IMG/VR virus record: IMGVR_UViG_3300037042_003862
Location: 1-54,531 of that record
Reading direction: 5' to 3' (one strand)
Source of the DNA: a virus
DNA: 54,531 bases
A model generated the notes under the pieces. That model did no database searches, was not told where the DNA came from, and saw only the letters and a list, made by a program, of their open reading frames with translations. Position numbers and translations under genes: made by a program. Numbering within the stretch: the first letter of the stretch is position 1; every line of letters starts with the position of its first letter. Shown piece by piece: positions 4,307 to 54,391 of the stretch.

Positions 4307-4840
4307 ATGAACGCCAAGCAACTCGACCTGCTCTCGATCCCAGCCCTGTTCGCCATCCTCAAGAGCGTGGAGACGCGCATGGCGGTCCTCTCGCGGTCCG
4401 CGGTGGGCACCAAGAGCGACTGGGTGCCCAACCTCAACCTCACGCACGATGAGGCCCTCGCGGAGTTCTCGGAGTGCGTCACCCTCCACCAACTCCTGGT
4501 CCCGCGGCTGGATCGGGCAATGGCCGAGGCAGCCTCCTCGGTGAAGCTGGTCTTCACCCCCAACGGAACGGGTCGCAACTTCGGGCTGGATGTCCAGGCA
4601 AACCTCGGCCACGGGATGGAAACGCTCTACCGCACCGGCCTCTACCTGAGCGAGAAGGCTGCCGTGGATTGCGTCGAGCAAGAAGGGCCCGACAACATCG
4701 CCAAGACCGTCATCCGCTACCTCAGCGAGAAGGCCACGGTCCAGCTGGAGGATCGAGACTCCTCACTGGTCCGCATCGCGGTCGCAACGCAGTTCCGCCA
4801 GCTGGCGGCGTCGGTCTCGAAACAAGACGCCAAAGTCTGA
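4307..4840 (+). CDS. hypothetical helical protein (177 aa)
   Basis: This 177-aa all-helical-looking protein is one of the larger proteins of the left arm. No recognised domain. Its start has no Shine-Dalgarno sequence because this copy of the element ends GATAACCATACC. If the message starts at the ATG, the gene would be read as a leaderless transcript. Both this gene and the next end with the same CCAAAGTCTGAGGCGGAG sequence, showing local duplication of the 3' end. Confidence 0.8.
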   Translation: MNAKQLDLLSIPALFAILKSVETRMAVLSRSAVGTKSDWVPNLNLTHDEALAEFSECVTLHQLLVPRLDRAMAEAASSVKLVFTPNGTGRNFGLDVQANLGHGMETLYRTGLYLSEKAAVDCVEQEGPDNIAKTVIRYLSEKATVQLEDRDSSLVRIAVATQFRQLAASVSKQDAKV

Positions 4841-4847
4841 GGCGGAG

Positions 4848-4886
4848 CTAAAGTCCCACCACCACCCGAGCCGATAACGGAGTATC
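4848..4886 (+). promoter_or_regulatory. start-associated promoter-like element
   Basis: TAAAGT 4849-4854, 18 bp, GATAAC 4873-4878, GGAGTATC, ATG at 4887. Confidence 0.75.
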
Positions 4887-5273
4887 ATGGGGAAGCTAAC
4901 TCTCGCAGCCGCTCGGAAGCAACTCAAGCGCACGTATGAGCTGAAGGATCAGCGAGTCAGCATCCGGAGCCCAGGCTCCCTGGGCCAGCGAGTCTACCAG
5001 CTGGAGGGAGGTATCCAACTCCGCAAGGAGATGGCCTACAAGCACGCTCGGGACCTCGTGGAGACCATGGTTGCCCGCGAGGTTACCAGCCTGACCAAGA
5101 TTGTCCTGCGTGAGAACACGTGGGAGGATTCGGGCTGGTCCACAGTCTACCTGATCGGCACCGAGGTAGTATTGATTCACCACAGCTCAGTGGATCGCAC
5201 CGCCCTCGGGCCCTTCCGGGAGGCGGAGTTGAAGCGTCAGATGGCCGTCCTGATTCGGGACACCAAAGTCTGA
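4887..5273 (+). CDS. hypothetical protein (128 aa)
   Basis: This 128-aa protein has a basic N terminus (MGKLTLAAARKQLKRTYELK), a helical middle and a beta segment WSTVYLIGTEVVLIHHSS. No catalytic motif is visible. It shares its terminal codons (TKV stop) and the following spacer with the end of the preceding gene. Function unknown. Confidence 0.8.
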   Translation: MGKLTLAAARKQLKRTYELKDQRVSIRSPGSLGQRVYQLEGGIQLRKEMAYKHARDLVETMVAREVTSLTKIVLRENTWEDSGWSTVYLIGTEVVLIHHSSVDRTALGPFREAELKRQMAVLIRDTKV

Positions 5274-5280
5274 GGCGGAG

Positions 5281-5318
5281 CTAAAGTCAGCACAACAATC
5301 AGCCGATAACGGAGTATC
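5281..5318 (+). promoter_or_regulatory. start-associated promoter-like element
   Basis: TAAAGT 5282-5287, 17 bp, GATAAC 5305-5310, GGAGTATC, ATG at 5319. Confidence 0.75.
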
Positions 5319-5873
5319 ATGGCACGAGTCGAACACGTCAAGTCAGCGCGCAAGGAGCAGGGCAACTGCGGTAGGTGCGGCGCTGAGATTCTCAAGGGCA
5401 TGCCCTACAAGTCAGTGGCGTTCTTCCGCGGACCGCGGAAGGTCCGGTGCGGCAACTGCTCGTTCCGGCCGTCGGAGTTGACGCAGAGCAAAATGAGCCA
5501 GGCCCTCGCGGCCGAGGAGACCATCCAGGACATCATCAACCAGTGGAACGGCGAGGACTTCGACTCGATCAAGAGCGACATCGCGGACCAGGCGCAGGAG
5601 ATTCGGGACGTGGCGGAAGAATACACCAGCGCGGCCGACGGCATGGAAACCAACGGCTCAAACAGCATCTCCGACGAATGGCGGGAGAAGGCTGACGCGC
5701 TGGAGGACTACGCCAGCTCGATCGAGGATGCCACCGAGGAGGTGCCGGACTACGAGGGCCCGATGGAGGAGGGCGAGGACCCCCAGCCGAAGAAAGATAG
5801 CGATGAGTTCAAGGCCTGGGTCGATGAGGCCAGGGGCATCCTCGCCGGACCGCTGGGGAATATGCCGGACTGA
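5319..5873 (+). CDS. zinc-ribbon protein with acidic helical tail
   Basis: This 184-aa protein has an N-terminal MARVEHVKSARK segment, then a four-cysteine zinc ribbon (C17/C20 and C44/C47), and a motif RPSELTQSKMSQ. The remaining 120 residues are strongly acidic and helical, probably a coiled coil (residues about 65-135). I recall proteins with this MARVEHVKSAR + ribbon + PSELTQSK architecture in many unrelated phages without an assigned function. A nucleic-acid-mimicking or host-interaction role is inference. Confidence 0.85.
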   Translation: MARVEHVKSARKEQGNCGRCGAEILKGMPYKSVAFFRGPRKVRCGNCSFRPSELTQSKMSQALAAEETIQDIINQWNGEDFDSIKSDIADQAQEIRDVAEEYTSAADGMETNGSNSISDEWREKADALEDYASSIEDATEEVPDYEGPMEEGEDPQPKKDSDEFKAWVDEARGILAGPLGNMPD

Positions 5874-5874
5874 G

Positions 5875-5912
5875 CTAAAGTCCCCAGCACAATCAGCCGA
5901 TAACGGAGTATC
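5875..5912 (+). promoter_or_regulatory. start-associated promoter-like element
   Basis: TAAAGT 5876-5881, 17 bp, GATAAC 5899-5904, GGAGTATC, ATG at 5913. This copy matches the consensus. Confidence 0.75.
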
Positions 5913-6227
5913 ATGAGCAACCTGTTCAGCAACAAGCAGACCCTCTCGGTGACGGTGACGGTGACGTTTGACCCGTCCGAGCTGATCGACCTCCTGTCCA
6001 TCAGCCACTTCCCCATGGAGTTCCTCCAAACGAACAAGGACATCAAGGCGGCCATCAAGCTGATGGTCGAAACGGAGGCCCTCCGGTGCAAGCAGCGCAT
6101 CCGAGACTTCCGCGCAGGCGGAAAGCCGCACGAGGCTCGGCTCTGCTGGGATGACGCGTCGATTGCGGTGCGGCAACGTCGCCTGGCGTTCCGCGTTGGG
6201 GCTGGGGGCACCGCCACCCCGTCCTGA
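5913..6227 (+). CDS. hypothetical protein (104 aa)
   Basis: This 104-aa protein opens with a beta strand (LSVTVTVTFDPSELIDLL), followed by helices rich in Arg/Lys. The short GTGACG repeats at about 5950-5965 encode the Val-Thr run. No domain recognised. A TGATCCGAGACTCCC block follows the stop. Confidence 0.75.
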   Translation: MSNLFSNKQTLSVTVTVTFDPSELIDLLSISHFPMEFLQTNKDIKAAIKLMVETEALRCKQRIRDFRAGGKPHEARLCWDDASIAVRQRRLAFRVGAGGTATPS

Positions 6228-6250
6228 TCCGAGACTCCCGACCCACAACG

Positions 6251-6285
6251 CTAAAGTCAGCACAACAATCAGCCGATAACGGAGT
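6251..6285 (+). promoter_or_regulatory. start-associated promoter-like element
   Basis: TAAAGT 6252-6257, 17 bp, GATAAC 6275-6280, GGAGT directly before the ATG at 6286 (ATC missing, as at 786). Confidence 0.75.
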
Positions 6286-6513
6286 ATGAGCAACGCACGC
6301 TACAAGGACCTGGCCGATTGCCTCTCGATCCGCTACGGTGTCTCGGCCATGGTCGCGAGTCCGACCACGGTGCTGTGGGCGGCCAACCACCTGATCGAGG
6401 TCGGAACGCTGGAGGTGGCCGCGGCCAAGAGCCAGCTGAAGGCTCTCAACGCCCAGCGCCACAAGCTCGGCGTGATCCCGGCATACGCTGACTTCGGCAC
6501 GAGGCTCTTCTGA
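6286..6513 (+). CDS. hypothetical protein (75 aa)
   Basis: This 75-aa protein begins MSNARYKDLADCLSIRYG and has a central helix with Ala/Leu heptads (LEVAAAKSQLKALNAQ). It ends TGA overlapping the ATG of the next gene (TGATG), so the two are probably co-translated. Function unknown. Confidence 0.75.
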   Translation: MSNARYKDLADCLSIRYGVSAMVASPTTVLWAANHLIEVGTLEVAAAKSQLKALNAQRHKLGVIPAYADFGTRLF

Positions 6514-6779
6514 TGACGACCATCCACATCCCAGCTCAGCAATGGACCCGCACCAGCGAGTGCCCCGCATTCGATACAACGTTTGAAGTCAAGGCAGGGG
6601 ACTACGAGGTGGTGACGGTGGAATACCACGCAGGCTACCCATTCTCGGCCGTCTGCGTCGATGCGGCCCAGGTCCGGGAGACTCCGGCCGCTCTCCTCGG
6701 AGGGATGCCGGTGGGCTGGACCAAGGAGGTCGGAAAGCCCACCCAGGTCCTCATCCCCCTCAAGGACCTCACCAAGTGA
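6513..6779 (+). CDS. hypothetical protein (88 aa)
   Basis: This 88-aa, beta-rich protein is translationally coupled to the upstream ORF. It has the aromatic motif YEVVTVEYHAGYPFSAVC and a C-terminal strand TQVLIPLKDL. No known fold is assigned. Confidence 0.75.
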   Translation: MTTIHIPAQQWTRTSECPAFDTTFEVKAGDYEVVTVEYHAGYPFSAVCVDAAQVRETPAALLGGMPVGWTKEVGKPTQVLIPLKDLTK

Positions 6780-6810
6780 GTCCTGAATCGGGACTCACTC
6801 GACCACAACG

Positions 6811-6848
6811 CTAAAGTCCCCAGCACAATCAGCCGATAACGGAGTATC
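6811..6848 (+). promoter_or_regulatory. start-associated promoter-like element
   Basis: TAAAGT 6812-6817, 17 bp, GATAAC 6835-6840, GGAGTATC, ATG at 6849. It is preceded by the TGAATCGGGACTC block at 6784-6796. Confidence 0.75.
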
Positions 6849-7178
6849 ATGACCCAGACCAAGCACCAGACCGACTGCTCCAGCGCGACACTGACCCGTT
6901 TCGAGAGGTTCGCTCTCGAAAAGAACCGCCAGATCGACTACCAGGACATTCGGCAGTTCCTGCTCGGCGAGGGATACCGAGACCCGGCACGCGCCACCGA
7001 GGGCCTCCTCGACAAGCTCCAGGTGGACAGCAAGGACATGTGGCTGATCGCCCAGGTGGGCCGAGCCTGTGCCCGCGAGGCCCGTGAGCTGCGCGAGGTC
7101 CTCCACGGCCTGGAGAGCGCCAAGCGCGCAGTCCGGGAGGAGGTTCGCAGCCGCTGGCCGGACTTGCTCGCAGACTGA
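6849..7178 (+). CDS. hypothetical helical protein (109 aa)
   Basis: This 109-aa protein is predominantly helical and highly charged, with a probable amphipathic C-terminal helix (ARELREVLHGLESAKRAVRE). No enzymatic motif. It is followed 21 bp later by a gene without an element, so the two probably share one message. Confidence 0.75.
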   Translation: MTQTKHQTDCSSATLTRFERFALEKNRQIDYQDIRQFLLGEGYRDPARATEGLLDKLQVDSKDMWLIAQVGRACAREARELREVLHGLESAKRAVREEVRSRWPDLLAD

Positions 7179-7199
7179 CACCGACCCCACGTCCACATC

Positions 7200-7382
7200 A
7201 TGACCAACGACACCACCACCGCTGCGATCCTCCTACTGGAGGGAGTCGTGCTCGACATCCACATCCACACCCACTTCCAGGAGGCACGGAAGCGCATCCT
7301 CAAGACAATCGACCTGCTGTCGGGAGGGAATGACGCGCTGATTCCGTCCTGGTTGCTGGCCGAGGTCCAGGGACTCCGCTAA
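7200..7382 (+). CDS. small hypothetical protein (60 aa)
   Basis: This 60-aa protein begins MTNDTTTAAILLLEGVVLDI and is followed by a His-containing segment HIHTHFQEARKRIL. It ends in TAA at 7380-7382, which is the first part of the next element. No family recognised. Confidence 0.65.
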   Translation: MTNDTTTAAILLLEGVVLDIHIHTHFQEARKRILKTIDLLSGGNDALIPSWLLAEVQGLR

Positions 7383-7416
7383 AGTCAGCACCTCAATCAG
7401 CCGATAACGGAGTATC
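7379..7416 (+). promoter_or_regulatory. start-associated promoter-like element
   Basis: TAAAGT 7380-7385, 17 bp, GATAAC 7403-7408, GGAGTATC, ATG at 7417. Confidence 0.75.
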
Positions 7417-8241
7417 ATGACGACGCAACGAAATGACGCGCACCTCCCGAGCAAGCTGGTCCCGGCCGACTACACGCACGTGATGAGCTTTGTCTACCCG
7501 AGCGAGGGCCTCCCGTTCGGGTTCGGAGTCGTGCAGCTGAACGCTCTCAAGGCCTCGGCTCCGTTCTTCCGCAAGCCGTCGGGCAAGAGCGGCTGCGCGA
7601 TCTGTGGGGCCCACTACCTCAGCGGTGACGTGTTCTTCCACGCGCCGACGGGCCAGCACATCGAGGTCGGTTGGGAGTGCGGCGACAAGCTGAACGCCCA
7701 CATCGACAGGAGCGAGACCGTCCAGGGAGCCCAGCGGGGCAAGCAGGAGAACCTCCTGCGCCTGGAGCGGGAGCGTCGCAAGGAGGAGGCCGAGCAGTTC
7801 TGCCTGGCCAACGAGGGCCTCAAGGAGGCTCTCCTCCTCGACCACCCGATCACCAAGGACCTCGCAGCCTCGCTGGCGAAGTGGGGCTGCCTGAGCGAGA
7901 AGCAGGTGGCGCTGGCTCTGAAGCTGGTGAAGGATGCGGCGACTCCGCCCAAGGCCAAGGCGGACGTTCCGGAGGGCAAGCAGACCCTCGTGGGCAAGCT
8001 GATCAAGATCAAATACGTGGACAGCAACTTCGGAGTCTCGGTCAAGATGCTGGTCGAGGTCGAGACTTCGACGGGATTCTTCCGAATCTACGGCACCAAG
8101 CCATCGGCCCTCCCGTCCAGCACTCCGGCTGGGACGATGCTCAGCTTCACGGCCGCGGTGGATCGGTCGGAGGATGACCCCTCGTTCGGGTTCTTCGCTC
8201 GGCCGACCAAGCTCGTGGTCCTGACCGCCACCCCGTCCTGA
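7417..8241 (+). CDS. zinc-site phage/plasmid protein (274 aa)
   Basis: This 274-aa protein is the largest of the left arm. Residues 60-88 form a likely zinc site: C60-x2-C63, H81 and C88, with the phrase GWECGDKL. A charged helical linker (about 105-135) and a helical domain follow. The C-terminal 85 residues are beta-rich (QTLVGKLIKIKYVDSNFG, then STGFFRIYGTKPS) and resemble an OB-like barrel. I recall similar architectures in actinophage and plasmid proteins of unknown role. Single-stranded nucleic-acid binding is a reasonable but untested guess. Confidence 0.85.
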   Translation: MTTQRNDAHLPSKLVPADYTHVMSFVYPSEGLPFGFGVVQLNALKASAPFFRKPSGKSGCAICGAHYLSGDVFFHAPTGQHIEVGWECGDKLNAHIDRSETVQGAQRGKQENLLRLERERRKEEAEQFCLANEGLKEALLLDHPITKDLAASLAKWGCLSEKQVALALKLVKDAATPPKAKADVPEGKQTLVGKLIKIKYVDSNFGVSVKMLVEVETSTGFFRIYGTKPSALPSSTPAGTMLSFTAAVDRSEDDPSFGFFARPTKLVVLTATPS

Positions 8242-8264
8242 ATCGGGACTCCCGCGACACCTCG

Positions 8265-8302
8265 CTAAAGTCCCCAGCACAATCAGCCGATAACGGAGTA
8301 TC
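8265..8302 (+). promoter_or_regulatory. start-associated promoter-like element
   Basis: TAAAGT 8266-8271, 17 bp, GATAAC 8289-8294, GGAGTATC, ATG at 8303. Last plus-strand copy. The TGAATCGGGACTCCC block lies at 8239-8253. Confidence 0.75.
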
Positions 8303-8545
8303 ATGAAGCTGACCAAAGAACAACGCAAGGCCCTGTGGTGCTTCGACCTCGCAGGGAAGATGGGAGCGGTGGTGATCACCCAGCTGCGCGAGCGCATGAG
8401 CGAGGTCGATGCCTTGCTCGCGGCAAAGTTCATCACCAGGACCGACCGCATCGGCGGCCTGACGGACTCGGGCGAACTGAGCTGGGCCCCAGTCTACACC
8501 ATCACCAAGGCTGGCTGCGACTACCTGGACGGAAACCCGCAATGA
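8303..8545 (+). CDS. winged-helix-like small protein
   Basis: This 80-aa protein has the pattern LTKEQRKALWCF, a GAVVI strand, a helix, LLAAKFITRTDR and PVYTITKAGCDYL. The final (V/L)Y-x-IT-x-x-G wing is typical of small phage winged helix proteins. The gene at 8745-8969 shares the pattern and is a paralogue. Its stop overlaps the next ATG (AATGA). Probably DNA binding, by fold inference only. Confidence 0.75.
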   Translation: MKLTKEQRKALWCFDLAGKMGAVVITQLRERMSEVDALLAAKFITRTDRIGGLTDSGELSWAPVYTITKAGCDYLDGNPQ

Positions 8546-8748
8546 AGACCATCCACACGTTCACAAACGGAGCACGCCGAGTCGAGGTCGGAGGGATCAC
8601 CCTCACCGTCGACAGGACCGGCCGCATCTCGTGGGCCTCCGACTGGGGGGACATCAACAAGCTGGTGGAGTCCGGCCTCGTGCGCCGGGTCCACTACCCC
8701 CACCTGTGGGGCCACACGGAGTTCATCCTGGTGGAGGCCTCCAAGTGA
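8542..8748 (+). CDS. hypothetical protein (68 aa)
   Basis: This 68-aa protein lies between the two winged-helix paralogues and is coupled by overlaps at both ends. Its first half is beta-rich (RRVEVGGITLTVDRTGRISW). The second half, DINKLVESGLVRRVHYPHLW, again looks like a helix plus wing. Function unknown. Confidence 0.7.
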   Translation: MKTIHTFTNGARRVEVGGITLTVDRTGRISWASDWGDINKLVESGLVRRVHYPHLWGHTEFILVEASK

Positions 8749-12814: not shown

Positions 12815-14317
12815 CTACCCCGAGAATGCTGAGACGGTCGAGGCCCAGTCTCGCTTTTCCAGCCAGCAAGAGATTGCTTTGAATACGGCATCGCTGAAAC
12901 CACCAACCCTCAGCACGTCGGGTTGCGCCGACAGCGTGTCCGTGGCGTTGGGCTCGATGTTGAGCCGAACCTGCTTCACCCCCGGGTTGATGCGGCGAAT
13001 CTCCCTCCAGTGAACGTCGGAGGCTCCGGCATACTCCATCCAGCTCATGTTGTCGCTGATCATGATGAGTTGGTTGAACTCGACTCGATTTGAGACGAGG
13101 TGCCTCAGAACAGAGTCTGCGTCCGTCCCCCCGAGGGGCCGGGGGAACCCGGCCATCAGAGTCGGGACGCTGTCTAGGGGGTTGAGGGCATGCTCGACAC
13201 AACTGTCGTTGAAGACGAGGACCTGGGTGTTGGTCGGGTTGCGCTTCACGAGGGCCGCCGCGAACAGCGCCGCCACGTCGCTACAGGTCATGACGGACTT
13301 CCCTACCGCGCTCGTCATCGAGCCCGAGATGTCGAGGGCCACGACCGTCTTGCCTGGGAACACCGGAACGTTCTGCGTGGAGATGTCTAGGGCCTCCTGG
13401 ACAGCGATCTTCACCGCCATCGGGACCTCGGAGTTGTCCTTGGCGGCCAGGAAGGTCGCCAGGATCTGGTAGGGGAACTGTCGGGACCTCCGCACCAGAG
13501 CCTCGTCGCAGAGCTTGCGGGTGATGAGGCTGGTGAGGGAGATGTCCTTGAACAGGCCGTGGCGAGCGAACGTGTTGAGGTTCATCCGGATGAACTGCCA
13601 GCCGCCTCGCTCGGCGACGATCCGCCACTGCGCCGGAGTCATCTGGACGCTGTCGATCATGTTGAACGGAACGTCCGGCGGATCGCCCACAGGGTTCTCG
13701 CGGAAGGCCAGTGTCTGGCGCACCACCTCCGGCAGGACCTCGGGGGTGGGCTTGCCGCAGAGGAGCTTGAACAGGCCCTCCCTCTCCGGACCTCCGGCCT
13801 TGGGCGACGGATGCGACAGGCGGAGAACGTCGGCCAAGCTCGGGTTCTTGGCGATGCTCTGTGTCCAGAGGTAGTCGTTGGTTTGCTTCGCCAACCAGTT
13901 GTTGATCAGCCGCTTGCCGGCCGTGCCGAGGCTCTTGCGCCCGAGCTTCCCCGAGCGGACCGCCTGGACGAAGTTGGACAACATCTTCACGTTGTCGATG
14001 ATCTTGTCGAACACCGGCTGCGTGATCACCGGGCTGCGCTTGCCGAACAGGTATGCGGCGAGAACGGCCGGAGAGTCCTTCATGAACCCCGCGTGCCGAG
14101 CGTAGATGGCCACCTGAGCAACGAAGTTGTCTGGGCAGAGACGGGCGGCCTCCAAGAGCTGATCGAGCTGAGTCTCAGCCTTGGTGTAGAAGGTGTCCTG
14201 AAACATCCCAGTCACAGCAAGCTGAGCCAGGGCGTCCTTCGGAGAGTAGGAGTATGCTGCTCCGCCGGCAGCGTTGTTGGTATCCGGCGAGTTGCCGGCA
14301 AATAGGTCGAGGTTCAT
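12815..14317 (-). CDS. rsr: Ro60-like TROVE/vWA RNA-binding protein
   Basis: This 500-aa protein is close to the usual 520-540 aa of Ro60/Rsr. The N-terminal two thirds are the helical TROVE ring (for example FVAQVAIYARHAGF, PAVLAAYLFG, FIRMNLNTFARHGLF). The C-terminal third is a von Willebrand A domain with an intact metal site: VALDISGSM (DxSxS), GGTDADSV (Thr) and MISDNMSW (Asp). Family members bind misfolded RNAs and Y RNAs and can tether PNPase. The start ATG overlaps the upstream stop (CTATGA), and the run belongs to the operon beginning at 16508. The adjacent gap downstream is a natural place for a partner RNA. Confidence 0.95.
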   Translation of the reverse strand: MNLDLFAGNSPDTNNAAGGAAYSYSPKDALAQLAVTGMFQDTFYTKAETQLDQLLEAARLCPDNFVAQVAIYARHAGFMKDSPAVLAAYLFGKRSPVITQPVFDKIIDNVKMLSNFVQAVRSGKLGRKSLGTAGKRLINNWLAKQTNDYLWTQSIAKNPSLADVLRLSHPSPKAGGPEREGLFKLLCGKPTPEVLPEVVRQTLAFRENPVGDPPDVPFNMIDSVQMTPAQWRIVAERGGWQFIRMNLNTFARHGLFKDISLTSLITRKLCDEALVRRSRQFPYQILATFLAAKDNSEVPMAVKIAVQEALDISTQNVPVFPGKTVVALDISGSMTSAVGKSVMTCSDVAALFAAALVKRNPTNTQVLVFNDSCVEHALNPLDSVPTLMAGFPRPLGGTDADSVLRHLVSNRVEFNQLIMISDNMSWMEYAGASDVHWREIRRINPGVKQVRLNIEPNATDTLSAQPDVLRVGGFSDAVFKAISCWLEKRDWASTVSAFSG

Positions 14318-25981: not shown

Positions 25982-26003
25982 CCCCGACCTCAGGTGGTCG
26001 GGG
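25982..26003. other. hairpin containing a stop codon
   Basis: CCCCGACC (25982-25989) and GGTCGGGG (25996-26003) form an 8-bp stem whose loop holds the stop codon of the gene ending at 25990. There is no T-run on either side, so it is more likely an mRNA-stabilising or pausing structure than a terminator. Confidence 0.5.
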
Positions 26004-26364
26004 GCTGATTATCTCGGTGGATGCTAGTTGCTGACGCCGCACTACGGGCGAGCATCTCCGCCTCTACCAGCAAGAGATACCGGCGGAGGTCTCGGATGTC
26101 GTCGATGATGCCCTCGGCACGCTTGTCTGCCTCGATGTGGGAGAAGATGTCCCAGGCGTCCGCGTCGGTTCGATTCGGGGCAACACCTTGGTGAATACCT
26201 TCCCGCACCCGGTTCTCCAGGCGGTCCCACTTGCGAGCGAGCATCATGAATGCGCCCACCCCTCCCCGCTTCTTCCAGGAGTCGCCATAGCTCTCCTCGG
26301 CCTTGAAGAGGCCGATGACGTCTCGGTCAGAGACCTCTTTGATGTGATCAAGGTAGTTGGTCAT
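25990..26364 (-). CDS. DUF1599-like / nucleotide-modification-associated protein
   Basis: This 124-aa protein has SYGDSWKKRGGVGAFMMLARKW and the following DRLENRV helix, a signature I associate with phage proteins near DUF1599, a domain tied by genomic context to nucleotide modification. The remainder is helical (RAEGIIDDIRDLRRYLLLVE). It sits at the distal end of the candidate modification cluster, directly after the HD phosphohydrolase. The family link is from memory and should be treated as tentative. Confidence 0.65.
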   Translation of the reverse strand: MTNYLDHIKEVSDRDVIGLFKAEESYGDSWKKRGGVGAFMMLARKWDRLENRVREGIHQGVAPNRTDADAWDIFSHIEADKRAEGIIDDIRDLRRYLLLVEAEMLARSAASATSIHRDNQPPTT

Positions 26365-26869
26365 TGTTTCTCTTCCAGCTGTAGGATTCTACGAACCTCA
26401 AGACTTCTGGAGGGGTGAGGTTGTTCCCGTTATTGAACCAGGTCCTCAACGCCCTCAGGCAAGGCATCACGTGAAGGTTGCCGAGGGCCTCCTGGTCGTA
26501 GGCCCAGAGCAGGAGTTCCAGCTTGTCCACCGCGGACAACCAGGCAAGGTCGTTGAGAGACAGCGGATAGTTCAGCAGGCCGAGTTTCGTCAGCACCGCC
26601 ACCTCAGCGTCCTCTTGCGCCTCGGCGAGCTTGGGGTGGGCCCATTTCGTCGGAGCCGGCATGTCCCCGCAGTAGCGTTCCGCCACGTCGTGGAACATCA
26701 CCGCCTTGACCAGGTCCAGGCTCGGGTTCGGGTGGAGGTGGAGCAGCAACATCGCAGCCTGCCAGGAGTGCTCGGCGATGTTGTAGGACCCGTGATGGGG
26801 AAGCGTATGGCAACGCTTCACGTGACCGGCCTCCCGGATGATCCGGATGACTTCTTGAGGGTCCATCAC
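26348..26869 (-). CDS. HD-domain phosphohydrolase (YfbR-like)
   Basis: This 173-aa protein has the YfbR/YedJ-like HD pattern: RCHTLPHHGSYNIAEHSW with His34, then AVMFHDVAERYCGDMPAPTKW with the H60-D61 pair, and an Asp in SAVDKLELL. Characterised relatives dephosphorylate deoxynucleoside monophosphates. Phage members can remove canonical dNTPs or dNMPs to favour a modified one. Its overlap (ATGA) with the thymidylate-synthase-like gene upstream suggests a nucleotide-pool role. Confidence 0.85.
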   Translation of the reverse strand: MMDPQEVIRIIREAGHVKRCHTLPHHGSYNIAEHSWQAAMLLLHLHPNPSLDLVKAVMFHDVAERYCGDMPAPTKWAHPKLAEAQEDAEVAVLTKLGLLNYPLSLNDLAWLSAVDKLELLLWAYDQEALGNLHVMPCLRALRTWFNNGNNLTPPEVLRFVESYSWKRNNDQLP

Positions 26870-27876
26870 TTCGCCCCCTCCTTGCGTCGCTCGATCCAGT
26901 CCCTTGCCGCCAGCCTCCAGTCGGCGGCCTCGACCCGGAGGATGTGCTGGGCCATGTCGCCGAGGCGACCCTCCTTGCGAGACAGCCAGGCCTCTCGCAT
27001 AGGCACAGCGACATCGCCGAAGAAGGAGTTGCTGAACCCGGAGGCCCCACCAACCATGAACTTCTCCAGGTCAGTGAACCAGGTGCGAGAGTCCTGGACC
27101 ATCGGGTAGGGCTGAACCTCCCCCGCGCTGTAAGGGTCCGATACGGTTCGGCTGCTGAAGAAGTCCGGCACGCAGCCCGCGAGCTTCTCTGCCATCTCCC
27201 AGTGCCCCTGGTAGATGTGGGTGTTGAAGGAGGTCTGGGTGTAGGTTCCGACCCCGAGTCCGGTGAGGCTGGCCATGACCTCCTGTAGGACGCTGAACTG
27301 GACAGCGTTGGCCCCGTGCGCTCCCCAGATCAGGTCGTTGCTGCGATTGAATACCATGAGAGCCAACCTCCCATCTGTATCGACCTGGAAGCAAGCCGAG
27401 ACGTTGCACGGGACATCCTTGGTATGCTGATGGGAGAGGTCCTGTCGAGGGTCCCACATCGAAAGGACCTGCCGGCGGTCATCAGGGTTCCGTCGCAGAC
27501 GGTCCGCGATCACGAGGAGCTGATCCATACCATAGTGGTATCTCCAGCGCCAGCCATAGGCTCCGTTGAACACTTTCCCATCGTCGGAATAGTTGGCGAT
27601 GTTCGCGCTGAACCTGCTAATCCACTCCACGTCTCTCCGGCCGTCGAGCATCCAGAGAGCTTCCATCAAGTGGAAGAACGGGTTGGCGTCCCGAGCGTCC
27701 CAGAACAGGACTCGCTCCTGGGGCTTGAGATAGACGGTGGACATGGCCGACGGGAACACCTTGACGGGCCCGTTTCGAGAAGCTCTGACAACACCCTTCT
27801 CGTTGATGCGCATGCAGCCGATCGGCAAAGCATGCTGAACGTTACGAGCTACAATGACTTCCACACACGCTCCCAT
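26866..27876 (-). CDS. thymidylate synthase-fold enzyme (possible dUMP hydroxymethylase)
   Basis: This 336-aa protein is of the thymidylate synthase/dNMP hydroxymethylase superfamily. It carries the catalytic Cys in KDVPCNVSACF, the phosphate-binding Arg-Ser in NRSNDLIWG and HGANAVQFSVLQE, and the C-terminal HIYQGHW block. Relative to classical ThyA, the G-x-PFN loop is one residue longer (GAHGAN), as in phage forms. The product may be dTMP or 5-hydroxymethyl-dUMP. The downstream HD hydrolase and upstream aGPT-Pplase/kinase-type proteins favour the latter by context. Confidence 0.85.
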   Translation of the reverse strand: MGACVEVIVARNVQHALPIGCMRINEKGVVRASRNGPVKVFPSAMSTVYLKPQERVLFWDARDANPFFHLMEALWMLDGRRDVEWISRFSANIANYSDDGKVFNGAYGWRWRYHYGMDQLLVIADRLRRNPDDRRQVLSMWDPRQDLSHQHTKDVPCNVSACFQVDTDGRLALMVFNRSNDLIWGAHGANAVQFSVLQEVMASLTGLGVGTYTQTSFNTHIYQGHWEMAEKLAGCVPDFFSSRTVSDPYSAGEVQPYPMVQDSRTWFTDLEKFMVGGASGFSNSFFGDVAVPMREAWLSRKEGRLGDMAQHILRVEAADWRLAARDWIERRKEGAK

Positions 27877-28139
27877 CTTGCTAGGGTTTCTGGCAAACAG
27901 ACCACGCGGAACCGTCCGGTGATCGGGTATGACCGACTCAGGCCCTTGGGCATGACCCAGGCCCGCCCAGAGTCGCAGTCTACTTTCGTGACATGTTCGA
28001 CAAAGTTGTTTGTCTCCAGGTCGAGCACATACAGGTGTTGCCAGCCCGGAGTTTCCTCGGCAGCAACAAACCGTATCGGGGCTGAGATGGTATCATCAAC
28101 CCTAGGTGCCTTGATACTTTGCTCGTGGTCGGCCTTCAT
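27849..28139 (-). CDS. hypothetical protein in the modification cluster (96 aa)
   Basis: This protein of about 96 aa has a basic N terminus and then a beta-rich body (HLYVLDLETNNFVEHVTKV, then ITGRFRVVCL). It overlaps the upstream gene by about 38 bp and the thymidylate-synthase-like gene by 28 bp. The start could be ATG 28139 or the adjoining GTG 28142; GAGGG lies just upstream. No family recognised. Confidence 0.7.
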   Translation of the reverse strand: MKADHEQSIKAPRVDDTISAPIRFVAAEETPGWQHLYVLDLETNNFVEHVTKVDCDSGRAWVMPKGLSRSYPITGRFRVVCLPETLARWERVWKSL

Positions 28140-29007
28140 CACGTTGGACCCTCGTGTATTTGTCGAACTCGCACAAAGAGTGCTCGATGTCGCGCATCTC
28201 TAGTGTAGCATCCCATCCAACAAAAGCTAGCTTGTGGGCCTTCGCATGCTGAAGCAGCACACGCATCCCCCCCAGGGCCGCCGCCGCGGAGAGGGGTTGA
28301 GGGTGTAGGGACCCATCCTCAGTCATGAGGCGGCGGAGCCCACGCAGCGCCCCGGGGCCTGCGTTCGCCCAATCCATGATGTCCTCGGCGTCCCGGAGGT
28401 AATGCGTGTGGCGGAGGTCGGTGACCCACTCGTAGGACATGAAGGGCCCCCAGCCAATGTAGTGAGGCTCCTGGGCCAGCAGAGCCCAGGTCTCTCGGAG
28501 GGTCCGCGCCGAGTCCAGTTCCTCCTCCAGCTTCCTCCGGTCATCCCAGAGTCGGCCCAAGACGATCTCGCTGATGTATCGTTGCTTAGTCCAGCTATAC
28601 CAGGGCTTGGTCGAGTCGGATTCCGCCCGGATCATGTAGGCCCCCGTGTAGACCTGCTCGCCCCGAGCCTTGCGAGCGTCGAGGAGTTCAGTCATGCGGT
28701 TCGGATGAAACACCTGACTCGACGGCCAGGCACTCCGGCTGCCGATCAACTCCGCCAGGGTGGGTGGGTGATTGATCGTCCGAGCTATCGCCAGCATGAA
28801 CCAGAGATAGGGGTGAGTGGCGAATGGGATCCGGATGTTGTCTCGGATCCACAACGTGACCGTGTCCAGCTCGCGGAACACGTTGCAGAACCGATACTGC
28901 TGAAGGATCGGGTCCGCGGTCCATGGCTTGGGCTTTCCCTCGGACCTCCGAACCCAGATGTCGTGACGCTTCAGCATCCAGTCGAATAACCCTGAGCCGT
29001 CGATCAT
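28102..29007 (-). CDS. 5-hmdU DNA kinase helical-domain / aGPT-Pplase-type protein
   Basis: This 301-aa protein opens with FDWMLKRHDIWVRRSEGKPK, PWTADPILQQYRFCNVFREL and DTVTLWIRDN. That block marks the helical (DNA-glycosylase-related) domain found in 5-hydroxymethyluracil DNA kinases and in alpha-glutamyl/putrescinyl thymine pyrophosphorylases. These enzymes act on 5-hmdU or its pyrophosphate in DNA to install hypermodifications. The ATG overlaps the stop of the kinase-like gene (ATGA), so the usual order of kinase part then helical part is kept as two genes. Assignment to family is confident, exact reaction not. Confidence 0.8.
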   Translation of the reverse strand: MIDGSGLFDWMLKRHDIWVRRSEGKPKPWTADPILQQYRFCNVFRELDTVTLWIRDNIRIPFATHPYLWFMLAIARTINHPPTLAELIGSRSAWPSSQVFHPNRMTELLDARKARGEQVYTGAYMIRAESDSTKPWYSWTKQRYISEIVLGRLWDDRRKLEEELDSARTLRETWALLAQEPHYIGWGPFMSYEWVTDLRHTHYLRDAEDIMDWANAGPGALRGLRRLMTEDGSLHPQPLSAAAALGGMRVLLQHAKAHKLAFVGWDATLEMRDIEHSLCEFDKYTRVQRDEGRPRAKYQGT

Positions 29008-29474
29008 GAGGGGATCCCCAGAGCGTCGCAAAGGAGCCCCCAGGCCCGCCCGGGCTCTAGTTGAAGGACCTCGACACCTTCCGTCTCCGAGGCCCTCGCC
29101 ACGAGGCCAGGGTGATCCAGAACCCCGAGATTGAGCAGCACCCAGATCACGCGGAAGCCGTCCCCCAGGAGGTCCCGCGACAGGTCGCGCTCCGCTCGGT
29201 AGCCGACTCCTGGGCACTGAACCACCACGGTCTGAACATCCGGTTCAGTCAGCGCCTGACGCACGGACATCTTCCGGATCCGGTGACTGACGTTCTGCTC
29301 GATCAGGCAGGTTTGGAGGTCCGGGTTGATCGTGCCCAGGACCATCCGAGCGGCTCCCGTCTCATCGATGAACGGAACCAGGTCCAGAACTCCGTCATGC
29401 GGCCCGAGGAACCCCAGGCCGATGGTCTCGCGGAGTCGAGCGTTACCGCGGAGCAGCACAATGGTCTTGGTCAT
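29004..29474 (-). CDS. P-loop-kinase-like protein with an eroded Walker A
   Basis: This 156-aa protein opens with KTIVLLRGNARLRETIGLG. The frame matches the common small-kinase opening LRGNxGSGKST, but the two glycines are Arg and the catalytic Lys is Glu. The rest keeps a P-loop-kinase-like alternation: VQTVVVQCPGVGYRAERDL, then GFRVIWVLLNLG. Position before the helical-domain gene matches the N-terminal kinase part of 5-hmdU DNA kinases. It is either a non-catalytic partner or uses different chemistry. Confidence 0.7.
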   Translation of the reverse strand: MTKTIVLLRGNARLRETIGLGFLGPHDGVLDLVPFIDETGAARMVLGTINPDLQTCLIEQNVSHRIRKMSVRQALTEPDVQTVVVQCPGVGYRAERDLSRDLLGDGFRVIWVLLNLGVLDHPGLVARASETEGVEVLQLEPGRAWGLLCDALGIPS

Positions 29475-30034
29475 GCAACCACCAGCTCACAGGTTTGGAT
29501 CAGCTTCTCAGCCGGGTTGTAGTGGTAGAACTTAGCCTGGTCCGAGAATAGCGGAATGTGCCTGTATTTCCTGATGCCGGGTTTGCGGTAGCTGAGGACC
29601 TTCTTGCCCCGGAGAAGCTCCGAGACCACCTCGCCATGCTTCTGGGTGATGGCGTAGGGCTGGTCCATGTAGAAAGCAATCTGGTTGGGCGGGTATCGCT
29701 TCTCGCAAGCCATCCGAACCTGGACATGCTCCGGGTGTTGAATGCCCAGGGGCACGACGATCAGGGCCTTGCCGAAGAACTCCGCGGAGGGGAAGTGATC
29801 ATCCAGGAGGGGCTGGCCCTCCACCGCTCCGGTCCCCATCCACTCGGAGCCCACCGCCTCGGCGTAGGCCAATGCGTCGTGGGCCCGCTTGCGGGTGGCA
29901 CTGAACACCGTCCAGATGATAGTCCGCTTCCCCGCCTTGACGCGGTCCTCGATGTGCTGCCCCATCGACAGGAACGCATCATCAGCGTGCGGCTCGACCA
30001 CGACCAGGTGATCAACGTCCAAGGATTGTATCAT
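29471..30034 (-). CDS. PIG-L/LmbE-family deacetylase
   Basis: This 187-aa protein begins with VDHLVVVEPHADDAFLSMG, the zinc-site motif (P/A)HADD (His16, Asp18, Asp19) of the PIG-L/LmbE family. These enzymes remove N-acetyl groups from GlcNAc-type substrates (GlcNAc-PI, GlcNAc-inositol). It overlaps the glycosyltransferase gene upstream by 23 bp, the same pairing (transferase then de-N-acetylase) as in mycothiol and GPI synthesis. In this cluster the substrate may be a sugar attached to a modified base or its precursor. Confidence 0.85.
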   Translation of the reverse strand: MIQSLDVDHLVVVEPHADDAFLSMGQHIEDRVKAGKRTIIWTVFSATRKRAHDALAYAEAVGSEWMGTGAVEGQPLLDDHFPSAEFFGKALIVVPLGIQHPEHVQVRMACEKRYPPNQIAFYMDQPYAITQKHGEVVSELLRGKKVLSYRKPGIRKYRHIPLFSDQAKFYHYNPAEKLIQTCELVVA

Positions 30035-31133
30035 ACAGCACCGCGGCGGAGTGGTTCTTCAGAACGTAGGCCCGAGCCTCCTCGGCGTTGAAGCTCGATC
30101 GGTCATAGCTGAGGAGCGCATCCGCCCAAGTCTCGGGGGTGTCGAGTGCGCAGATCAGGTGGGATGGGATCGGGGTGTTCTTCACGCTGCTGTGAACCAC
30201 CGGAACACAGCCATAGTAGAGAGCTTCGATGATCGTGTGGTTGTAGCTGCCGGCCCTGTAGGCCGCATACTTGGGCTTCCCAGAGCCCTGGAAGTCGATC
30301 ATGAAGGAGCCTCGGCTCAGGATCGTCGGCACCTGGGTCTCCGGCACACAGCCGAAGAACTGCGCTGGGCCCACCCCACTATAGTCCGGGGCAAAGTGGT
30401 CGCGGCCGACACGCTCCTTCCACTCGGGCTCAAGGCGCATGTTGTAGTATTCGATGCCGTTGCCATACATCTCAACGGTCCATCCGTTGGTGCTGGCGGC
30501 CGGGAGACCTTCCCAGAACTTGCTAATGCCCTTGATGTTCTTCCACTGGGGCAACCAGATCACCAGGTTGGGGTCTCGCTCGACCTCGGGGTGCTCTGCG
30601 AGTTCCCGGAACGGCACAAATGCGTTCGTGACTGGGTATCCCGCCTTGATCATCGGGTCGCCGTATGCCGGCTGGCAGACCATCGTGCGGTCGCAGAGCG
30701 GGAGCACCATCTCCCCAAACTCCTTGTATGAGTCCCAGTAGCCGTCATGGACGTAGCCGATGATGGGGATCCCGGCAGCCTTGATGCCTTCCAGGAGGGG
30801 AAGGAACAGCGGCTGGTCGCCATAGGCCTTTGTCGGGTGGGGGCAGAGGAACGACAGGATGACCGCGTCGTAGTTCTGCTGAATGAACCGCAGCGTTGCC
30901 TTGAAGTTCAAGGGGTGGTGCGGCGCGGTCCCGTCGATCGTGATGAAGGTATCGCCGCCACGAACCCGCTTGCGCTGGATGAACTTCCCCGGAGCTTTTG
31001 TCTTCTGGGGATCCGAGGCCAGGATGTCGAACTCATCACCTCGGGAGAGGGCCTCGGCCCTCAGCGTCTGGAACGTGGTGTTGATTCCCCCGACGCTGGA
31101 GGTGGACCAATGTAGCACTGCGACTCTTGTCAT
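30012..31133 (-). CDS. GT-B fold glycosyltransferase (GT4-like)
   Basis: This 373-aa protein has a Rossmann start VAVLHWSTSSVGGINTTFQT (glycine loop), an inter-domain region with NLVIWLPQWKNIKGISKF, and the donor-site pattern YNHTIIEALYYGCVPVVHSS with the conserved Glu typical of GT4-like enzymes. There are no membrane segments. The donor is probably a nucleotide sugar; the acceptor could be hydroxymethylated DNA or another molecule. It is the first gene of the modification cluster, 13 bp after the helicase. Confidence 0.85.
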   Translation of the reverse strand: MTRVAVLHWSTSSVGGINTTFQTLRAEALSRGDEFDILASDPQKTKAPGKFIQRKRVRGGDTFITIDGTAPHHPLNFKATLRFIQQNYDAVILSFLCPHPTKAYGDQPLFLPLLEGIKAAGIPIIGYVHDGYWDSYKEFGEMVLPLCDRTMVCQPAYGDPMIKAGYPVTNAFVPFRELAEHPEVERDPNLVIWLPQWKNIKGISKFWEGLPAASTNGWTVEMYGNGIEYYNMRLEPEWKERVGRDHFAPDYSGVGPAQFFGCVPETQVPTILSRGSFMIDFQGSGKPKYAAYRAGSYNHTIIEALYYGCVPVVHSSVKNTPIPSHLICALDTPETWADALLSYDRSSFNAEEARAYVLKNHSAAVLYDTILGR

Positions 31134-32391: not shown

Positions 32392-33270
32392 TCAGAATGG
32401 CGACTCACCATCGCCGCCGGTTCCGCCGTCGGGACCGCTGCTGCTGACCGACTCGTCGGCCATCTTGCGAGCACCGGACGCCACCTGCTGGTTGAGCAGC
32501 ATGCCGAACTGAAGCAGCGGGTGTGGCTGCTTGTCTACGGTCTGGGGAGGGATCAGCGACTCTCCAACCTTGCCATTCACCGCCGGGGCGATAGCGAAGT
32601 TGAAGAAGCTGCCCTTGTTGTTCTTCTGCGACACGGTCGTGATTCGCAGGATGTTGGCGAACAGCGGCGGACGCTCCTTGTAGGTGCGAAGCTGCTGCAT
32701 GATCGCCCTGTAGACCTTGATCTTGGTCGAGGTGAAGCTGACCACGATCACGTTGCCCGGCTCCGTGGCCGTCACGCAGTCGAGCATGTAGCCGAACATG
32801 TAGAAGGTCTCGCTGAGTTCGTTGCCCTCGTCGGTCTTGAGGTTCCCGAACTCTCCCGAGGCCTTGACTGCGCGGACCATCTCGCTGTCCTTCTCGTGGC
32901 GAGCGACGATCCCGCCGCCGGCACTGCGCGGCCGCCACTCCACGTAGACATGGTTGGTGGCGACGGGGACGAACAGCACGCCCTCCTTCCCACTGAACAG
33001 TTCCTTGGTCACGCTGTTGATCAGCATGCCCGGACGAGCCCCCTCCAGGGCCCCACCTTCGCCCTCACCACTGACCTCGGGCGACATCGCCTGGAGAACC
33101 CCCAGGAACGGCATCGTGAAGTCATCTTGGTCCGTCCCCTCGTAGCCAGCACCGGCCATGTTGCCGTAGTTGTAGGCTGGGGCGACCTCCTGCTTGACCG
33201 GAGCGGTAGGCAGGTTCTTCTTCTTTTCCTCGACCGGAGCCGGGGTGTTTGTCTTCTTGGCAGTTGCCAT
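32392..33270 (-). CDS. putative single-stranded DNA-binding protein
   Basis: This 292-aa protein has a basic N-terminal tail, a beta-rich core (GVLFVPVATNHVYVEWRPR, GNVIVVSFTSTKIKVYRAIM) and a Ser/Gly/Asp-rich tail ending GDGESPF. An acidic tail with terminal Pro-Phe is the classic protein-docking end of SSBs (DDIPF). I do not recognise the core family with certainty. It lies between the two helicases and is preceded by a degenerate start-associated element, so it may be highly expressed. Confidence 0.7.
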   Translation of the reverse strand: MATAKKTNTPAPVEEKKKNLPTAPVKQEVAPAYNYGNMAGAGYEGTDQDDFTMPFLGVLQAMSPEVSGEGEGGALEGARPGMLINSVTKELFSGKEGVLFVPVATNHVYVEWRPRSAGGGIVARHEKDSEMVRAVKASGEFGNLKTDEGNELSETFYMFGYMLDCVTATEPGNVIVVSFTSTKIKVYRAIMQQLRTYKERPPLFANILRITTVSQKNNKGSFFNFAIAPAVNGKVGESLIPPQTVDKQPHPLLQFGMLLNQQVASGARKMADESVSSSGPDGGTGGDGESPF

Positions 33271-33306
33271 GAGTCATCCTTTCTGAGTTCGCGGTCCCCA
33301 CTTTAG
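33271..33306 (-). promoter_or_regulatory. degenerate start-associated element
   Basis: Minus strand: CTAAAGT (complement of 33300-33306), then AAAGGATGACTC and the ATG at 33270. The GATAAC box is missing. It keeps the -35-like half and a Shine-Dalgarno-like AAGGA. Confidence 0.4.
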
Positions 33307-33359
33307 CGTCCGGGAGCGCATAGGACGTTCGGGGTGGAAGGCCCCCGAGGGCCTGTAGG

Positions 33360-33899
33360 TCACTTCGTGGTGATCTTTGCGATCCTCTGCTCCCAAGCTC
33401 CGAACAGCGGGAGCGGGATAGCCTCGCCGCCGGACAGCTGCTCAGCGATGAACGCCCGGAGGGTGCTGGGCTCAACCTTTCGATCGGTAGCCACGTTCTC
33501 AAACTTCTTGCCGAGTTCGGTGACGAGCTTCGCAGCCTTCACCTCCTCCTCTCGACTGAAGCTCACGAGGACGGTGCGCTTGACGAGACCTCCGTGGCCG
33601 TGCTCGTCGAGCCAGTCCATGGCCGCATCCTTCTGAGCTGCGGGGATGCTGGCTCGGATCGTCTTGGCGATCTTGATGCGGAACCCTTCAGTGGTCCGAT
33701 ATTCGGCGAGGCCGAGCTGGTCCATGAGTTCCGGGATCTGGCGCTCAGCGAGGTCCGTGACGACCTCGTTGGCCTTGGCGAGAGACTCCTTTGCCTTCTC
33801 CGCCTCTACCTCCGCCGCGTTGAGTTCCGCAGCAAGTCGGTTGAGTTGGGCGAGGGCATCGGAGGTTGGTGCTGTCTTGAATTGGTCGTAGCCTGACAT
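33360..33899 (-). CDS. coiled-coil phage protein (179 aa)
   Basis: This 179-aa protein has an N-terminal coiled coil of about residues 15-55 (LNRLAAELNAAEVEAEKAK) followed by a mixed domain (FRIKIAKTIRASIPAAQKD, TVLVSFSREEEVKAAKLV). Similar proteins often sit beside SSB-like or recombination genes in phages, but no function is established. A hairpin-rich spacer separates it from the SSB-like gene. Confidence 0.8.
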   Translation of the reverse strand: MSGYDQFKTAPTSDALAQLNRLAAELNAAEVEAEKAKESLAKANEVVTDLAERQIPELMDQLGLAEYRTTEGFRIKIAKTIRASIPAAQKDAAMDWLDEHGHGGLVKRTVLVSFSREEEVKAAKLVTELGKKFENVATDRKVEPSTLRAFIAEQLSGGEAIPLPLFGAWEQRIAKITTK

Positions 33900-52644: not shown

Positions 52645-53796
52645 TCACACGCGCTCCCGGGTCCGGGACACGTGCTGTTCGTAGGCCTTCTGGCCTTCGG
52701 GAGTGCCGAGGGCCTTGGTGTAGGCCCGCTCAAACGTGACGTTGTCGCGCTTGGCGATCTCCGTGGCCAGTCGGTCGATCGGCGACAGGTCGTTGTCCTC
52801 GTCGTTCGTGCCGCCCGCGCTCGTGCCGGCGCGCTTGAAGGCCTCCGACAGTCGGAGGTCCTGGGCCTTGAGGACCGAGAGTGCGCCTTCACGCTCCGAC
52901 TCGGGCAGCAAATCCAGGGCCTTGAGCAAGGACATGCGGGACTCGTCCGTGCCGGGGAGGTGGGCGAAGTCCTTGGAACGCTTCTCCAGGTCGGACTTCT
53001 TGGCCTTCTCCTCCGCCAACATGCGCTTCTTCTTCTCCTCGTCCATCATCTTGGCGAGGTTGATCATGCGCGTGTCGTCGTTCTTGCGGTAGGTCGTGCC
53101 GTCCATGGCCGTGTAGACCACCTGGTTGGCTTCCGCCGCCTTGCGAACCGTCTCGTCACGATCAGTGTCGCTGGCGGTCAGGAACGCTTCCGCGTCCTCG
53201 CCCTTCAGCAAGCGGAAGTGGGAGCGTTGAACGTCGGACAGGTTGGAGATGGTCTCTGCGCGCTCAACACGCTTCGCCATCTTCTCCATGTCCGCCTTTT
53301 GTGCCGCCGCAGCTGCCTCGGCGGCCTTCTTTTCCTCGGGGGTCATTTCGTGATCCTCGTGATTGCCGATTGCCTCGGCGGCCGTAGTGCCTGCGGATTT
53401 GGTGGCGTCATCAGCGGCGGCAGGCTCGCCCTCCGATGACGTAATGTCCGGCACCAAGCTACCCTTGGTGATGATTTCGATTCCGTGGTTGTGGCCCATA
53501 GCGTGGCCTACCGTGACGTTGCCGGCCTCATCCATCAACCACGAATGGGAATGGCCGTCGACATAGTCGGTCTGGCCAGCTCGGCGGACGAACTCCCCGC
53601 CACCCATCGTGATGTAGTGGGCATGGCCACCAGTCATCGTCGTGAGGGCCATCGACATCTGAAGCTTGGTGAGAGGAGCCTCCCGCTTCATGATCGCGAC
53701 CCGGGCCCCTTGCTGAGCAGGCCGATCCACTCCGCTGATCTCGTCCAGCTTGAAAGACCGCATCACTGTGCGAACAACCTTGCCGTCCTTGATCAT
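52645..53796 (-). CDS. XkdF C-terminal part fused to scaffold-like coiled coil
   Basis: This 383-aa protein begins with FKLDEISGVDRPAQQGARVA, which matches the conserved end of XkdF/prohead-protease proteins (EVSxVDxPAN). A histidine-rich stretch follows (residues about 55-110, including GHAHYITM, DGHSHSW and GHAMGHNHG). The rest is an Ala/Glu/Lys coiled coil (about 150-300), typical of scaffolds, and a helical C terminus. It starts by ATGA overlap with the protease gene. The protease probably cleaves it during head maturation. Confidence 0.75.
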   Translation of the reverse strand: MIKDGKVVRTVMRSFKLDEISGVDRPAQQGARVAIMKREAPLTKLQMSMALTTMTGGHAHYITMGGGEFVRRAGQTDYVDGHSHSWLMDEAGNVTVGHAMGHNHGIEIITKGSLVPDITSSEGEPAAADDATKSAGTTAAEAIGNHEDHEMTPEEKKAAEAAAAAQKADMEKMAKRVERAETISNLSDVQRSHFRLLKGEDAEAFLTASDTDRDETVRKAAEANQVVYTAMDGTTYRKNDDTRMINLAKMMDEEKKKRMLAEEKAKKSDLEKRSKDFAHLPGTDESRMSLLKALDLLPESEREGALSVLKAQDLRLSEAFKRAGTSAGGTNDEDNDLSPIDRLATEIAKRDNVTFERAYTKALGTPEGQKAYEQHVSRTRERV

Positions 53797-54194: not shown

Positions 54195-54390
54195 CGCTAT
54201 CCTCCGACATGCGAATGCTGGTGGGGTGGGGCTTCTCCACTACGGGAGCTGGGGCCTGGACCTCCGCCCGAGGGGCACGCATGAGGCTCCCCACGAGGCT
54301 GTGGACTTCTTGGAAAGGTCTCTGCTTCAGGAAGTCCACGAGGGCCTGAGCAAGCGAGACGGGGATCAACAGTTGGGGTTCTTGGGTCAT
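54187..54390 (-). CDS. hypothetical head-gene-cluster protein (67 aa)
   Basis: This 67-aa protein begins MTQEPQLLIPVSLAQALVDF and has a Pro-rich, charged C-terminal half. Start 54390 is the ATG one base after the upstream TGA; a TTG at 54405 is an alternative. It overlaps the protease gene by eight bases. Function unknown. Confidence 0.65.
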   Translation of the reverse strand: MTQEPQLLIPVSLAQALVDFLKQRPFQEVHSLVGSLMRAPRAEVQAPAPVVEKPHPTSIRMSEDSDD

Positions 54391-54391
54391 G

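Follow-up and report, generated by a model that had tools for sequence, protein, structure and literature searches.

A phage cassette pairing a glycosyltransferase with a de-N-acetylase points to an amino-sugar-modified thymine in DNA

Layout and genomic place of the cassette

The DNA analysed here (the window) is the whole of IMG/VR virus record IMGVR_UViG_3300037042_003862 (positions 1 to 54,531; 54,531 bases), and its subject is a cassette of eight minus-strand open reading frames (ORFs) which fills positions 25990-31133 and is predicted to modify 5-hydroxymethyldeoxyuridine (5-hmdU) in phage DNA. Stops overlap starts throughout, three of the overlaps being 4 bases long, and GC content at third codon positions (GC3) is of coding type in all eight ORFs (Table 1). 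A Dda-like helicase gene is followed by genes for a glycosyltransferase (GT), a PIG-L-type deacetylase, g06, HMUDK_hel, g04, a thymidylate synthase (TS)-fold enzyme, an HD-domain nucleotidase, g01 and polA. An original prediction, made from the sequence alone, had placed a coupled thymidine hypermodification gene set at this position; its extent and coupling were confirmed, and the set is more than a chance assembly, since it recurs in independent viral contigs. Searches of the window proteins against Pfam and PHROGs gave firm matches for the TS, HD and HMUDK_hel proteins, weak matches for PIG-L and the GT4-like protein, and nothing firm for g01, g04 or g06.

Table 1. Genes of the cassette, listed from the helicase side towards polA.
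Gene	Positions	Strand	Length (aa)	Assignment	Evidence
GT	30012..31133	-	373	Glycosyltransferase, GT-B fold, GT4-like; predicted 5-hmdU-DNA glycosylation	weak PF13439; structure model
PIG-L	29471..30034	-	187	PIG-L-type de-N-acetylase; predicted N-acetylhexosamine (HexNAc) deacetylation; H16-A-D18-D19 ... H100-P-E-H103	PF02585 21.8 bits
g06	29004..29474	-	156	Relative of 5-hmdU DNA kinase without P-loop	phmmer with L008 kinase 33.1 bits
HMUDK_hel	28102..29007	-	301	HMUDK_hel / aGPT-Pplase1; predicted 5-hmdU-DNA recognition partner	PF18723 5.9e-54
g04	27849..28142	-	97	Small protein	position held by Nmad5 in relatives
TS	26866..27876	-	336	dUMP-type TS-fold hydroxymethylase (predicted); Cys157, Asn190	PF00303 2e-26; PHROG 5131 (thymidylate synthase) 8e-113
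HD	26348..26869	-	173	HD-domain YfbR-like deoxynucleotidase; predicted trimming of competing nucleotide pool	PF12917 2.5e-10; PHROG 6047 2.6e-51
g01	25990..26364	-	124	Conserved companion of 5-hmdU cassettes	homologous proteins in cassettes of the kinase, GT and TAGT types

The cassette occupies the genomic place of the 5-hmdU hypermodification genes of Pseudomonas phage M6, a system reportedly shared by Pseudomonas phages M6, YuA and SN1. The order in M6 and SN1 is aGPT-Pplase2, a pyridoxal phosphate (PLP) enzyme, a radical SAM protein, kinase, HMUDK_hel, Nmad5, TS, HD and polA; the locus of Stenotrophomonas phage Sonora matches this layout (aGPT-Pplase2/(PLP, radical SAM)/kinase/HMUDK_hel/Nmad5/TS/(HD)/polA), and the same Dda-like helicase precedes the cassette in the window as in M6-type phages. 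Given the identities to the M6 and Sonora counterparts (46-50% for TS and 48-53% for polA), the phage is classed as a Mesyanzhinovviridae-like siphophage. Profiles built from the M6 and Sonora genes found no aGPT-Pplase2, PLP enzyme or radical SAM gene in the window, and the synteny shared with M6 and SN1 indicates that GT and PIG-L take the place of this amino-acid branch.

Three proteins of the M6 pathway were recognised in the window under the functions originally predicted for them. The TS-fold enzyme is approximately 50% identical to M6 gp58; its closest relative in the Protein Data Bank (PDB) is the MilA CMP hydroxymethylase, and at the position of a MilA Asp it has Asn190, which we take to be the uracil (dUMP)-type residue. 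This motif is kept in nearly all the loci described below, in every class, with one exception. The HD phosphohydrolase proved to be a YfbR-like 5'-nucleotidase. HMUDK_hel, which overlaps the g06 stop with its start (ATGA), is the aGPT-Pplase1 protein and is 53-56% identical to its counterparts in M6 (ORF055) and Sonora. It had no match to the PDB by sequence, and its AlphaFold2 model (pLDDT 92) gave one plausible structural neighbour, the 5-phosphomethyl-dU glycinyltransferase PUGT (8z2n; probability 0.98, E 0.08, TM 0.44). Kinase and GT loci share an invariant core of HMUDK_hel residues, a pattern that fits a partner-independent role.

Glycosyltransferase, deacetylase and a kinase relative without a P-loop

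The GT falls below the Pfam cut-off for PF13439 and was borne out as a glycosyltransferase by its AlphaFold2 model (pLDDT 86, pTM 0.84), in which a GT-B fold is clear. When the model was searched with Foldseek, the nine best matches were to T4 DNA alpha-glucosyltransferase (AGT; E 7e-13 to 1.5e-10, TM approximately 0.6), several of these structures being complexes with hmU-DNA, and the next were to the N-acetylglucosamine (GlcNAc) transferases MshA and BshA, the TM for BshA being similar. At the first acidic position of E-x7-E, the usual GT4 motif, the window protein has Gly.

The PIG-L protein likewise lies below the PF02585 cut-off (28.2 bits), while a homologue exceeds it at 32.8 bits. Its HADD...HPEH motifs align with those of solved sugar deacetylases, in agreement with the function first proposed, and H16, D18, D19, H100 and H103 are invariant in the 8 viral homologues. 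The closest solved relatives are the teicoplanin and A40926 pseudoaglycone deacetylases, followed by BshB; by this comparison the protein is nearest to enzymes that deacetylate amino sugars once these are attached, and its predicted metal and base motifs are intact.

The kinase-like protein of the original prediction, g06, is a relative of the 5-hmdU DNA kinase and lacks the Walker A motif. The nearest relative of the window by HMUDK_hel (63% identity), a locus designated L008, carries radical SAM, kinase, HMUDK_hel, g04 and TS genes, the kinase belonging to PF18748. Using phmmer, g06 matched this kinase over most of its length (E 1.2e-9), the best of 500 shuffles scoring 5.0 bits. The Walker A sequence GTNGSGKST of the L008 kinase reads NARLRETIG in g06, and the LID region is deleted. 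PF18748 was not found in the window, g06 included, and a family-wide kinase profile scored g06 no better than shuffles, so that the homology was seen only through L008. We therefore reject the reading of g06 as an active kinase. Its reading frame is intact, and to us it looks like a dead kinase: a pseudokinase kept for another purpose or a gene in decay; in another relative, L005, the kinase gene is gone altogether.

Partners of HMUDK_hel in other viral loci

No match to GT, PIG-L or g06 was found by tblastn against 50,697 phage records, nor to GT or g06 as single-protein queries against IMG/VR, where homologues were recovered only with alignments or with PIG-L as bait. With PIG-L, and not HMUDK_hel, as bait, seven viral records besides the window were found, and a second scan with 8 PIG-L sequences added no new loci. 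GT, PIG-L, HMUDK_hel, TS and HD genes lie in this order in four of them (L005, L088, L089 and L092); L090 has TAGT, PIG-L, HMUDK_hel and TS, and L091 has HMUDK_hel, GT and TS, with PIG-L approximately 9 kb beyond TS and away from GT. Thus HMUDK_hel, TS and GT accompany PIG-L in 7/8 records (window included), no active kinase was detectable in any of the eight, and in most the PIG-L gene directly follows the GT gene. Separately, a 32% identical PIG-L relative occurs in a contig of an Actinomycetes metagenome-assembled genome (JAKOUY010000020.1, 7992-8543), where HMUDK_hel, TS and GT were not detected nearby.

A census was made of 85 viral HMUDK_hel loci, with GT defined as GT4-like or TAGT and the window, given that g06 lacks a P-loop, scored as having no kinase. 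A kinase without GT was found in 54 loci, GT or TAGT without a kinase in 25, neither in 6 (4 of which are cut off just upstream of HMUDK_hel) and both in 0. When only loci flanked on each side by 2.5 kb or more were counted, the figures were 30 kinase-only, 20 GT/TAGT-only, 1 neither and 0 both. GT and kinase are therefore mutually exclusive partners of HMUDK_hel across the 85 loci, which indicates that the sugar branch replaces the kinase branch. Over whole records, PF18748 was present in 0/19 of the GT class, among which L006 was counted, and 12/12 of the kinase class; PIG-L was found in 6/25 GT loci and 0/54 kinase loci. As these locus counts include closely related loci, the tree-based figures are safer: the HMUDK_hel tree calls for a minimum of six switches between kinase and GT, four of which its starred branches make unavoidable, and it places the window, L005 and L088 amid kinase rows.

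In Microbacterium phage Golden (1353-2823) the gene preceding HMUDK_hel, labelled 'terminase small subunit', contains the P-loop GYPGAGKST and is probably a kinase partner; M6 gp54 is mislabelled in the same way.

A cultured counterpart of the kinase-less class is Brevibacterium phage LuckyBarnes, with B. iodinum ATCC 15728 as its host; the complete genome (50,774 bases) has TS with the dUMP-type motif, two TAGTs and HMUDK_hel in a row and no PF18748 anywhere. The TAGT family has been linked to the addition of a second glucose onto glucosyl-5-hmdC in T6-like phages (PMC13390438). Two tandem TAGT genes also lie directly before HMUDK_hel in the L065 record (4351-5863), an arrangement shared with LuckyBarnes that suggests disaccharide addition. 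In another record (L080, 8.9-12.1 kb) HMUDK_hel and TAGT are accompanied by methyltransferase-like, acyl-carrier-like and radical SAM-like proteins, possibly for a further elaborated modification.

Proposed pathway, alternatives and related systems

The reading we favour, to which we assign a probability of roughly two in three, is that the cassette makes an amino-sugar-modified thymine, 5-hmdU in DNA being glycosylated with a HexNAc which is then de-N-acetylated to an amine. The substrates, sugar and order of steps that we propose are as follows. The TS-fold enzyme would turn dUMP into 5-hmdUMP, with the HD nucleotidase removing competing nucleotides, and 5-hmdU would be built into phage DNA, replacing T in part or fully. 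Once the DNA is replicated, HMUDK_hel would probably direct the GT to its 5-hmdU residues, and the GT would attach a sugar to the hydroxymethyl group, with GlcNAc supplied by host UDP-GlcNAc as the likeliest; in M6 the kinase would phosphorylate this hydroxyl instead. PIG-L would then strip the N-acetyl group. The base would be left with a glucosaminyl-type amine, and thymine would thus acquire an amine, as it does in M6 and ViI, though along another path. A kinase gene would be obsolete in such a pathway, persisting without its P-loop in the window and lost in L005. The original prediction of a 5-hmdU cassette whose GT and PIG-L point to an amino-sugar base is thus retained, while its view of an M6/ViI/phiW-14 pathway with an added branch is not, as an active kinase, aGPT-Pplase2, PLP enzyme and radical SAM protein are all missing from the window.

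More tentatively, at slightly less than even odds, we propose that HMUDK_hel is a general 5-hmdU-DNA adaptor that has repeatedly taken either a kinase or a GT of two unrelated families, and that the window phage, with its dead kinase, produces a previously undescribed DNA base, 5-(glucosaminyl-oxymethyl)-deoxyuridine.

Several points weigh against the amino-sugar reading. The donor sugar is a guess from the BshA/MshA-like GTs and the PIG-L partner, and the lead of T4 AGT among the structural matches comes from a predicted model and is not exclusive, AGT, BshA and others all aligning with the GT model at a TM of approximately 0.6. No GT was seen in kinase loci, where only two GT families were sought, and in a sign test 4/4 independent pairs ran in the expected direction, too few to reach 0.05. 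In a T4-like fragment of 84.7 kb (L006, IMGVR_UViG_3300010371_000033) GT and PIG-L genes at 5455-8546 with 45% and 52% identity to those of the window are separated by two GIY-YIG-like ORFs, and neither TS nor HMUDK_hel was found in the fragment. The pair is therefore not strictly tied to 5-hmdU and may also serve another hydroxymethylated base. Finally, at the right end of the window (53793-54531) the contig ends just beyond an XkdF-like protease, and neither a terminase nor a portal was identified in the window, so this end is probably incomplete and a kinase may lie beyond it.

The best-surviving alternative, which we consider unlikely, is that the GT glycosylates 5-hmdU in DNA while PIG-L acts elsewhere, on a nucleotide sugar, another host or phage substrate or another acyl group, leaving a base with an acetylated or plain sugar. 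GT-class loci without PIG-L (L077, L079 and the TAGT class) make glycosylation alone a workable end point, and the distant PIG-L gene of L091 is in keeping with a separate role. The usual position of PIG-L directly after the GT gene argues for joint action, as do the known GT4/PIG-L pairs BshA/BshB and MshA/MshB, which work in series on a single acceptor.

A reading less probable still leaves plain 5-hmdU in the DNA: the targets of GT and PIG-L would be the cell surface, a phage protein or a small thiol, and chance or co-regulation would account for their place in the cassette. Members of the GT4 and PIG-L families do mostly act on such substrates, and in L006 neither TS nor HMUDK_hel was found alongside the pair; against this stand the presence of HMUDK_hel, TS and GT in 7/8 PIG-L records, the strict replacement of kinase by GT across HMUDK_hel loci and the use of TAGT, a family of DNA glycosyltransferases, in other kinase-less cassettes. 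That the M6-type amino-acid route still runs, with g06 or an outside kinase phosphorylating 5-hmdU, HMUDK_hel transferring an amino acid or amine and GT and PIG-L adding to it, would agree with the PUGT-like fold of HMUDK_hel, the intact g06 frame and the probably incomplete contig, but is the least probable reading given the loss of P-loop and LID from g06, the missing tailoring genes and the recurrence of kinase-less GT cassettes, including that of the complete LuckyBarnes genome.

In M6, ViI and phiW-14, whose thymidine hypermodifications have been characterised, the route passes through phosphorylated 5-hmdU. The window shares with the M6 type its genomic place, phage lineage, dUMP hydroxymethylase, HD nucleotidase and HMUDK_hel, and differs in having GT and PIG-L in place of an active kinase and the tailoring enzymes. 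As in the T4 AGT pathway, a GT-B enzyme is predicted to act on a hydroxymethylated pyrimidine in DNA; here, however, the base would be 5-hmdU rather than 5-hydroxymethylcytosine (5-hmC), the sequence is not recognisably AGT, and HMUDK_hel and a de-N-acetylase are added. Like the pairs MshA/MshB, BshA/BshB and PIG-A/PIG-L, the window has a GT4-like transferase beside a PIG-L deacetylase with intact motifs, but the acceptors of those pairs are inositol phosphate, malate or lipid rather than the predicted DNA, and sequence similarity is low. To our knowledge, neither the base J system nor that of phage SP-15 uses HMUDK_hel or PIG-L. Both place a sugar on a thymine-derived base: base J (beta-glucosyl-hmU, in kinetoplastids) arises by JBP oxidation and a glucosyltransferase (PMC6449724), while SP-15 carries dihydroxypentyl-U with glucose and phosphoglucuronate, the glucose sitting on a different base than 5-hmdU (PMC5977210). 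A paper from 2019 described glucosylated 5-hmdU as unreported in phages (PMC6449724). 5-hmdU-derived phage bases and glycosylated 5-hmC are already known, and an earlier prediction of GT/deacetylase cassettes may exist in the literature.

If the amino-sugar reading is correct, a switch between kinase and GT with a single conserved helical protein at its centre would constitute a second, sugar-based branch from 5-hmdU, HMUDK_hel would gain a testable role, the predicted aminated sugar base could block host nucleases and the enzymes could serve in DNA labelling. The GT branch is testable now with cultured phage LuckyBarnes, and with DNA of phage SP8, which is 100% 5-hmdU (PMC7653180), as the substrate.

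As regards the two small cassette genes, the DUF1599-like label first given to g01 fails for the window protein, which had no Pfam match; the sole contact with DUF1599/Nmad1 was through one distant homologue at E 0.05. The only g04 homologue found was in L008, beside kinase, HMUDK_hel and TS; its position is held by Nmad5 in L005 and M6-like phages. Elsewhere in the window, two minus-strand proteins (32392-33899) match families like gp34 and gp33 of cyanophage Pam3 (1.7e-53 and 1.8e-30) and tie the window phage to Pam3, which itself has a kinase-type cassette. A protein of 500 amino acids encoded at 12815-14317 (minus strand) has a Ro60-type vWA domain (PF25045, 3e-11) with a trace of TROVE, which marks it as a phage-encoded Ro60-like protein.

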